Assembly: GCA_021780815.1 (NCBI GenBank)
Contig: JAJXYC010000018.1
Coordinates: forward strand, 62,001-126,000
DNA from: Bacteroidota bacterium
GTDB taxonomy: Bacteria; Bacteroidota; Ignavibacteria; Kapaibacteriales; UBA2268
Reading direction: 5' to 3'
Length of the DNA: 64,000 bases
The notes beneath the pieces were generated by a model. The model ran no database searches, had not been told where the DNA came from, and saw only the letters and a program-made list of their open reading frames with translations. This document shows, in pieces, positions 53,788-55,693 of the stretch. Made by a program: the position numbers and the translations under genes. Every line of letters starts with the position of its first letter. Position 1 is the first letter of the stretch.

Positions 53788-54447
53788 TTATTTGATAACA
53801 GCGAACATATCTTCGGGCGTATCGCAAATAGGGCAAGGTTTGTTACGTTTGCCTCTTTCTGTAAACCCACAAACAGGACAAACAAAAAAGTCATCTGTTG
53901 CTTTTTTCCACTTCTCCAAATTATTCATCGCTTCATTATAAAAGCCAGCATGAACTTTTTCTACTTGTAAAGAAAAATTAAAAGCTCGCATTGCATCAAT
54001 ATTTTTCTCTTTCTTCGCATTATCTAAAAATTCAGGGTACATTTTGGTATATTCGTAAGTTTCACCATTTAAAGCAGTCTGCAAATTTTCCTTTGTGGTT
54101 TTAACTTCGGGATTTTTCACGTCAGCAATTGGTTTAGCACCCATTTTTTGAATCACATTAGAAAGATTGTTTGCATGAACTTTTTCTGCCTGCGCTGCCG
54201 CCCGGAACAAAACTGCAGCTTGTTTGTATCCTTCTTCGTCAGCTTTTTTAGCGAATGCTTCGTACCTCGTATTCGCATTCATTTCCCCGTTATACGCTGT
54301 TTGCAAATTTTGCAACACTACACTATTGTTTGCCGTTTGGACTTGTGTTGTTGTTTCAGGCTTTTGCTCTTGTTTGGCTTCTTTCGTGCAAGAAACAACT
54401 GCCACCAATGTAATTGCAAGAAATAATAAGTTAATATTTTTTTTCAT
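53788..54447 (-). CDS. rbr: Rubrerythrin with a lipoprotein signal
   Basis: Non-heme diiron peroxidase fused to a rubredoxin domain, 219 residues. The first 20 residues look like a lipoprotein signal: KK, a hydrophobic run and the lipobox VVSC with C20. The diiron helices carry LQTAYNGEMNANTRYEAFAK, then AAAQAEKVHANNL, ALNGETYEYTKMY and SLQVEKVHAGFYNEA (Glu ligands and two ExxH). The rubredoxin end has FVCPVCGF and KPCPICDTPEDMF, four cysteines for iron. Rubrerythrins are usually cytoplasmic, so export and anchoring is unusual. It is divergent from a Fur-family regulator and a peroxiredoxin, in line with peroxide defence. Confidence 0.92.
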   Translation of the reverse strand: MKKNINLLFLAITLVAVVSCTKEAKQEQKPETTTQVQTANNSVVLQNLQTAYNGEMNANTRYEAFAKKADEEGYKQAAVLFRAAAQAEKVHANNLSNVIQKMGAKPIADVKNPEVKTTKENLQTALNGETYEYTKMYPEFLDNAKKEKNIDAMRAFNFSLQVEKVHAGFYNEAMNNLEKWKKATDDFFVCPVCGFTERGKRNKPCPICDTPEDMFAVIK

Positions 54448-54568
54448 AAAGACTCCAGTAAAAAAAGTTAATAAAAATATAATTAATTTATCTTTAATTT
54501 AACAAAATTTTTTTAAATTGCAAAATATTATAATAAAAAAATAAAAAGAAAATTCATTCGTTTTAATA

Positions 54569-54600
54569 TTAGAGTAATTCTAAATTTAAAATTATTCTAA
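54569..54600 (+). promoter_or_regulatory. Two tandem Fur/PerR-like boxes before the regulator
   Basis: TTAGAGTAATTCTAA (54569-54583) and TTAAAATTATTCTAA (54586-54600) are 15-base 7-1-7 palindromes, each with a single mismatch between half-sites. They are 17 bases apart, centre to centre, and end 14 bases ahead of the fur-family ATG. The layout resembles PerR boxes (TTATAATnATTATAA). Likely operator for self-control and possibly for the divergent rubrerythrin gene. Confidence 0.65.
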
Positions 54601-54614
54601 AAAAATAAGAAAAG

Positions 54615-55034
54615 ATGAAAACAAAAAATAAAGTAGGAAGTTTAGTAAACAAGAATGTAAAGCCAACTTTACAAAGGCAAATTATTTACGAAACCTTATC
54701 TAAATTACGTATTCATCCTACGGCAGAGGAATTGTATCAAGCGATTAAAAAAGATTATCCTGCAATTTCCCTCGCTACAATTTACAATACATTAGATTTG
54801 TTTGAAAAAAATAAAATTATCATTACAATTAACAGAAATGGAGAAAGCACTCGCTATGATTTAATAGAAAAGAAGCATTTCCACCTTTTTGATGAAGATA
54901 AAAATGAAATAGTTGATTATTACGATGACGAATTATATAAATTAATTAAAACGTATTTAAATTCCCATAAGTTAGAGAATTATCAAATTCAAGATTTTAA
55001 TCTTGAAATTTTTGTAAATAAAATTAAGGAGTAA
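54615..55034 (+). CDS. Fur-family regulator without cysteines
   Basis: Metal- or peroxide-responsive DNA-binding protein, 139 residues. The winged-helix part is intact: [54 protein letters not shown]. The second half keeps [17 protein letters not shown] in place of the usual HHHHxxCxxCGxV, so the metal-sensor HxH survives partly, but the whole protein has no cysteine and thus no Cys4 structural zinc site. It is followed five bases later by a peroxiredoxin gene and preceded by two palindromic boxes, which favours a PerR-like role. Confidence 0.85.
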
Positions 55035-55039
55035 CAAAA

Positions 55040-55693
55040 ATGTCAGAACAAACAAGACCTTTAATGCTTGGGGATAAATTCCCCGAAGTTGAGTTGCAAA
55101 CAACTCATGGGAAAATGAAGTTACCAAAAGTTTTCGAAGGCAAATGGTTTATCTTATTTAGTCACCCTGGTGATTTCACACCTGTTTGCACAACAGAATT
55201 CGTGGGGTTCCAAAGACGTTACGAAGAATTCAAAAAATTGAACTGCGAATTAATTGGATTAAGTATTGACCAAGTATTTGCTCATATTCAATGGGTAAGT
55301 TGGATTAAAGAACATCTCAATACACACATTGAGTTCCCTATTATTGCTGATGATGGTGCATTTGCTAATGTTCTCGGAATAATTCATCCTAACAAAGGGA
55401 AAAATACAGTTCGTGCTGTCTATTTTGTTGACCCAACAAGCACAATTAGAGCTATACTTTTCTATCCACAAGAATTAGGTAGAAATTTAGATGAGTTTTT
55501 ACGTATGTTGAAAGCTTTTCAAGTTGGTGAAGAAAACGGTGCTGCTATGCCTGCTAATTGGCCTAATAATGAGCTAATTGGGAATAAAGTTATTGTTCCA
55601 CCTCCGACAGATGTTAAAGCTGCTGAATACAAGAAACAAAAATACGAAAATTACGACTGGTGGTTCTTGTATAAAGATATTGGCAAAGAATAA
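55040..55693 (+). CDS. Peroxiredoxin (Prx6/1-Cys type)
   Basis: Thiol peroxidase of 217 residues. [15 protein letters not shown] sets the peroxidatic C50. The long C-terminal part ([29 protein letters not shown]) is typical of the Prx6 subfamily. AAGGAG precedes the ATG at 55040, and the regulator's stop is only five bases upstream, so the pair shares a transcript. Only one further cysteine is present (KLNCELIGL), so the resolving partner may be external. It likely detoxifies hydrogen peroxide or organic peroxides together with rubrerythrin. Confidence 0.93.

Follow-up and report, generated by a model that had tools for sequence, protein, structure and literature searches.

Rubrerythrins are a standard component of the peroxide defence of anaerobes and are regarded as acting in the cytoplasm with electrons supplied by NAD(P)H and rubredoxin. 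The window analysed here, a stretch of 64,000 nucleotides from a member of the Bacteroidota, encodes a rubrerythrin-type protein with the N-terminus of a lipoprotein, which raises the question of whether such an enzyme would work in the cell envelope and what would reduce it there. The preliminary description of the locus had placed the known rubrerythrin systems in the cytoplasm, in agreement with the passages of PMC545781 considered here; it is this site of action that would separate the classical enzymes (PDB 1b71; 1nnq of P. furiosus) from the window protein, while the combination of a diiron domain with a C-terminal rubredoxin domain is common to both. The relevant features are as follows.

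53788..54447, minus strand: whole coding sequence, including the stop codon, of a rubrerythrin-type lipoprotein of 219 amino acids
54388..54447, minus strand: predicted lipoprotein signal peptide with the lipobox VVSC, Cys20 being the predicted lipidated residue (sequence and heuristic)
54322..54387, minus strand: linker, residues 21-42, charged and Gln/Thr-rich, with low pLDDT (AlphaFold)
53914..54321, minus strand: diiron four-helix domain, residues 43-178 (Pfam, ligands, AlphaFold)
53791..53889, minus strand: rubredoxin-like C-terminal domain, residues 187-219 (Pfam, Cys positions, AlphaFold)
54453..54456, minus strand: Shine-Dalgarno-like GGAG, 5 nt 5' of the ATG (sequence)
54569..54583, no strand assigned: near-palindrome TTAGAGTAATTCTAA, PerR-box-like, recognized post hoc
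54586..54600, no strand assigned: near-palindrome TTAAAATTATTCTAA, PerR-box-like, recognized post hoc
54615..55034, plus strand: divergent Fur-family regulator, best NCBIfam match PerR, below the cut-off (profile matches)
55040..55693, plus strand: 1-Cys peroxiredoxin, directly 3' of the regulator (profile matches)

Bacterial lipoproteins are recognized by a positively charged start, a hydrophobic core, and a lipobox whose final Cys lies within about 30 residues. Read from the ATG, the rubrerythrin begins with MKKNINLLFLAITLVAVVSC, followed by TKEAK; a Lys-rich start (Lys2-Lys3) precedes a hydrophobic core that ends in the VVSC lipobox with Cys20, so that by this heuristic the protein has the sequence characteristics of a lipoprotein, its processing being predicted. 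With a crude signal rule that asks for a positive start, a hydrophobic stretch free of charges, and a lipobox, it was the sole lipoprotein call among the 53 non-overlapping window ORFs of at least 100 amino acids. In view of this rarity and the retention of signals in homologues, a chance lipobox was rejected. The lipoprotein-type signal noted earlier is borne out at the level of sequence, from which export, processing, and activity of the protein are predicted.

Behind the linker, all seven diiron residues (E55, E88, H91, E129, E132, E163, and H166) and all four rubredoxin cysteines (C190, C193, C205, and C208) are kept, confirming the earlier statement that both metal-binding parts are complete. 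The two E-x-x-H motifs and the carboxylate ligands, including an extra Glu, align to nigerythrin. The Pfam family Rubrerythrin (PF02915) is matched with 95.5 bits (cut-off 22.8), and RUBY_RBDX, despite the four cysteines, with 21.6 bits, which is below its cut-off of 26.5. Neither the nigerythrin equivalog NF045783 (135.2 versus 340 bits) nor the rubrerythrin equivalog NF045767 (110.6 versus 200 bits) reaches its cut-off. The AlphaFold model (mean pLDDT 90; low confidence for residues 1-42, fold from residue 43) shows a bundle of four helices followed by a small beta domain. Its nearest solved fold, according to Foldseek, is that of nigerythrin (PDB 1yuz/1yux, from Desulfovibrio vulgaris), with TM values of 0.74/0.81, an rmsd of 1.5, and 37-38% identity; bacterioferritins are also matched by the ferritin-like fold. 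Nigerythrin is the best solved sequence match as well (9.7e-31), with the same domain order and ligands, but the solved chain has 202 amino acids and carries no indication of export, and the window protein stays under the equivalog cut-off. Judged by domain and ligands, the protein is a member of the rubrerythrin family, with a predicted peroxidase activity.

The Fur-family regulator is transcribed divergently from the rubrerythrin gene, with 167 bp between them. It scores 77.7 bits against the PerR NCBIfam model (cut-off 180) and has an Asp at a position which we take to be typical of PerR. Given this PerR/Fur-type regulator and the 1-Cys peroxiredoxin, both divergent from the rubrerythrin gene, a role in peroxide stress is likely. 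In the congeneric genome G003, the rubrerythrin gene is likewise divergent from a FUR-family gene; an adjacent peroxiredoxin was not found at that locus. Between the rubrerythrin and regulator genes of the window, the two near-palindromes, 17 bp apart, resemble TTAGAAT-N-ATTCTAA, a motif picked post hoc, and no such repeats were found in the intergenic region of G003. A PerR box is not accepted as proof of control, as the motif was chosen after it had been seen and is absent in G003. According to the passages of PMC545781 considered here, rubrerythrin is PerR-linked in several bacteria, and PerR-rubrerythrin gene clusters are described in delta-proteobacteria.

Matches to the window protein occur in 23 of the 123 genomes of the order, five of which encode a version with a signal (G000, the window's own genome, and G003, G018, G034, and G011); the other matches with a readable N-terminus begin directly at the domain. 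A second match in G011 has its start cut off, and a weak second match in G033 has a rubredoxin-like part in front. Within the genus, the gene is present in two of five genomes and missing from three. Homologues lacking the signal had been named in the preliminary description as potential counterevidence to export; the nearest homologue, from G003 (51% identity), has its own signal with an LVSC lipobox.

The survey was extended to 117 distinct rubrerythrin ORFs, drawn from 43 loci of genome contigs, from the relatives, and from selected loci of the phylum. A script called 10 of these as lipoproteins and 13 as carrying Sec-type signals; five more were assigned to export by eye (L002, L108, L112, and two Brachyspira rows with a mis-chosen start). 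Predicted exported rubrerythrins recur within the same phylum, and others come from Brachyspira and from a single Kiritimatiellota MAG. The earlier reading of a predicted lipoprotein signal on a complete rubrerythrin stands, and the case is not an isolated one. The Brachyspira proteins (L028-L034) resemble the window protein in having a signal ahead of a full diiron-rubredoxin protein and differ from it in that this signal is of the Sec type without a lipobox and in that their position differs between trees. In the passages of PMC4955376 that deal with Brachyspira fractions, rubrerythrin is abundant in the exopeptidome and in surface fractions, together with many cytosolic proteins, and its signal is not discussed. 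The Kiritimatiellota rubrerythrin (L002:4848-5531), which groups with the window protein, has a Tat-like twin-Arg N-terminus, GRREALGIITLS; export in a folded, metal-loaded state would be possible in this case. Another lipoprotein lineage (L108, L111-L115, L120) has lost diiron ligands in most of its members; with L220-L222 included, most of these relatives have degraded ligands and retain the rubredoxin cysteines. At L111 and L112, the gene is next to a set of genes common to both loci; one of them codes for a 4Fe-4S protein, and the set resembles a hydrogenase cluster.

For phylogenetic analysis, the signal columns were removed from the alignments. In a tree of 95 rows, with 22 of the 117 left out and 27 labelled as exported (L002, L108, L112, L027, and L030 by eye, the rest by script), exported rows cluster with 3 changes versus a shuffled mean of 23.8. 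A tree of 56 rows, from which the long L120, L108, L136, L113, and L115 and four Brachyspira near-copies were dropped and in which the cytosolic rows were thinned to 37, gives 2 changes versus 16.1; here, a single group (81/88) contains all exported rows and two cytosolic tandem copies, from G018 and G034. In a third tree, built with mostly different cytosolic rows and with the seven degenerate rows removed, the window-type proteins and those linked to DUF2231 (see below) fall together (95/95) with Brachyspira apart, and the AU test does not reject a single clade of exported rows (p 0.57). One origin for all predicted exported rubrerythrins is possible. Tandem genes for an exported and a cytosolic rubrerythrin occur in two genomes of one genus (L047/L098 and L048/L099), the cytosolic copy nesting within the exported group, a pattern which suggests that after duplication one copy went back to the cytosol.

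The strongest new result is the partnership of the sister lineage with a membrane protein. A short membrane protein is encoded upstream at all nine loci of a first set (L098-L106) and was identified as PF09990 (DUF2231) in both of the two loci scanned. When 395 genomes of the phylum were searched with a DUF2231 profile, six sister-lineage genomes scored 212-239 bits, the highest score among the rest being 120, a raw co-occurrence which is partly circular as these six were in the profile; with each of the nine held out in turn, the scores were 147-216 bits, compared with no more than 120 for the best unlinked proteins. For an independent test, 391 genomes of the class were searched with a profile built from the nine rubrerythrins. 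It found 29 genomes at 248-350 bits, followed by G003 (210), the window's genome (185), and the remainder at 156 and lower. Of the high-scoring genomes, 23 were outside the first set, and inspection by eye gave all 23 of their rubrerythrins a signal-like N-terminus, which in two includes a lipobox. DUF2231 is encoded at 18 of these 23 new loci (192-229 bits), always upstream and on the same strand, at an ORF-to-ORF distance of 4-146 nt in seven and of 2.1-3.5 kb in eleven; in the first set, a gap of the latter size holds the genes of a two-component pair (OmpR-type regulator, histidine kinase). Altogether, the gene for a distinct DUF2231 protein lies upstream on the same strand, either directly or behind the two-component pair, at 27 of 32 sister-lineage loci. 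Three of the five exceptions (L199, L202, L215) are contig ends with 1-356 nt of upstream sequence, and the other two have 1.5 kb (L195) and 5 kb (L219) upstream without DUF2231. At control loci, DUF2231 was found at none of 54 cytosolic (513 kb), 10 degenerate-lineage, eight Brachyspira, and three window-type loci.

His8, His13, and His79 are invariant across the 27 DUF2231 proteins. The mean number of Lys and Arg residues is 0.0 at the N-terminus, 2.6, 1.1, and 4.1 in loops 1 to 3, and 0.9 at the C-terminus; on this distribution, and by the positive-inside rule, the invariant histidines are predicted to face the periplasm. Such a placement matches the expectation for a membrane donor, for which we infer haem binding and quinol oxidation, and makes DUF2231 a candidate quinol-linked electron donor to the exported rubrerythrin of this lineage. 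The DUF2231-linked proteins are like the window protein in their sister relationship, predicted export, and complete diiron site, and unlike it in the DUF2231 partner, the frequent OmpR/histidine kinase pair, and the fourth rubredoxin cysteine, which is Ser in many of them (RCGISMT for RCGICMT; L101-L105, L198-L218). The Ser variant is found mostly where the two-component pair separates the DUF2231 and rubrerythrin genes and may possibly represent a natural Cys3-Ser iron site.

It had been argued at the outset that a membrane-anchored rubrerythrin would need a periplasmic electron donor, and this question proves to be a real one. Profile searches of the window's genome place PF02915 at a single site and give no match to rubredoxin (PF00301). 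DUF2231 is near neither the window gene nor that of G003; the genomes with window-type proteins contain only distant, unlinked copies (52-54 bits), the single one of the window's genome (52 bits) belonging to another subfamily and that of G003 being divergent from what, read by eye, appear to be cytochrome oxidase genes. DUF2231 as the window protein's own donor is unsupported by linkage. The one match to cytochrome c (PF00034) lies in a cluster (G000:C9, L165) coding for proteins with 6, 1, 1, 13, and 6 CxxCH motifs, including a cytochrome b561-NapC/NrfH-like fusion, an OmcA/MtrC-like protein, and a Rieske protein. Periplasmic electron carriers are therefore encoded in the genome, without any tie to the rubrerythrin gene. 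The sole COX1-family match (G000:C14:48778-50076, L167) lies within a frame of 756 amino acids, a length that brings to mind a quinol-dependent nitric oxide reductase more than an oxygen reductase.

On balance, the window protein is probably a diiron peroxidase of the rubrerythrin/nigerythrin type that would be exported by the Sec route, lipidated on Cys20, and anchored at the periplasmic face of the membrane. Its gene would be controlled by the divergent PerR-like regulator; electrons would pass through the rubredoxin domain to the diiron site, where hydrogen peroxide would be reduced to water within the cell envelope. The most likely donor would be a c-type cytochrome of the periplasm or some other donor derived from the membrane, while DUF2231, passing electrons from the quinol pool, would be the natural candidate in the sister lineage. 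Given Sec export, iron loading would have to take place outside the cytoplasm. The lipoprotein-type signal, the metal ligands, the fold, the PerR/peroxiredoxin neighbourhood, and the kinship with other rubrerythrins of predicted export are read from the sequence; processing, peroxidase activity, PerR control, and the donor are what we infer. Against the account stand the absence of the gene from most of the genus, the lack of DUF2231 nearby, and the missing repeats in G003. Its weakest link is the electron donor of the window protein itself, which may be an unrelated one, and the protein may not turn over at all.

It is unlikely, though deserving of serious consideration, that the protein is exported and serves the envelope mainly as a ferroxidase, an iron binder, or a sensor, instead of as a turning-over peroxidase. 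The resemblance of its fold to bacterioferritins, the persistence of a lipoprotein side lineage after loss of the diiron ligands, and the lack of a dedicated donor next to the gene would suit such a role, but the rubredoxin domain is complete, every diiron ligand including the extra Glu is kept, and a PerR-like regulator and a peroxiredoxin adjoin the gene. An uncleaved signal serving as a plain N-terminal membrane anchor for a cytoplasmic domain supplied by ordinary cytosolic donors is very improbable: Lys2-Lys3 ahead of the core are compatible with any signal, whereas the strict lipobox closing the core, the plain Sec-type or Tat-like signals of sister proteins, and the genome's lack of a PF00301 match argue against it. 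The signal would be an annotation artefact of a cytosolic protein if translation began at GTG44, TTG45, or TTG48, codons just 5' of the domain, where cytosolic rubrerythrins begin and each of which would delete the signal. No Shine-Dalgarno-like site was found before any of these three, GGAG precedes the ATG, and the N-termini in G003, G018, G034, and G011 are of the signal type beyond a mere open frame, as are those of the 23 further sister-lineage proteins. A conserved downstream start, foreseen earlier as an argument against export, is hence not well supported; on the position of GGAG and the homologous N-termini it was rejected, with hardly any probability left to it.

What sets the probable exported peroxidase apart within the rubrerythrin family is its predicted place of work, the cell envelope. 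In the literature searched, mostly that outside subscription journals, no description was found of a periplasmic, exported, secreted, or lipoprotein rubrerythrin or of a link between DUF2231 and rubrerythrin. Likewise, the terms periplasm, signal peptide, secret-, lipoprotein, membrane, and export do not occur in the main text of a rubrerythrin phylogeny (PMC5114695). As a tentative idea, more doubtful than probable, exported rubrerythrins might form a distinct, old group of quinol-fed envelope peroxidases, in which the four-helix DUF2231, with its invariant histidines predicted on the periplasmic side, would bind haem b and reduce the rubredoxin domain, as a non-haem counterpart of the haem-c quinol peroxidases, with the lipoprotein branch of the window using another membrane or cytochrome donor. 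A rubrerythrin lineage working outside the inner membrane needs another source of electrons and another route of iron loading than its cytoplasmic relatives, and the recurrent DUF2231 neighbour gives an uncharacterized, widespread membrane family a testable function. If true, peroxide defence in the cell envelope would extend beyond haem and thiol enzymes.
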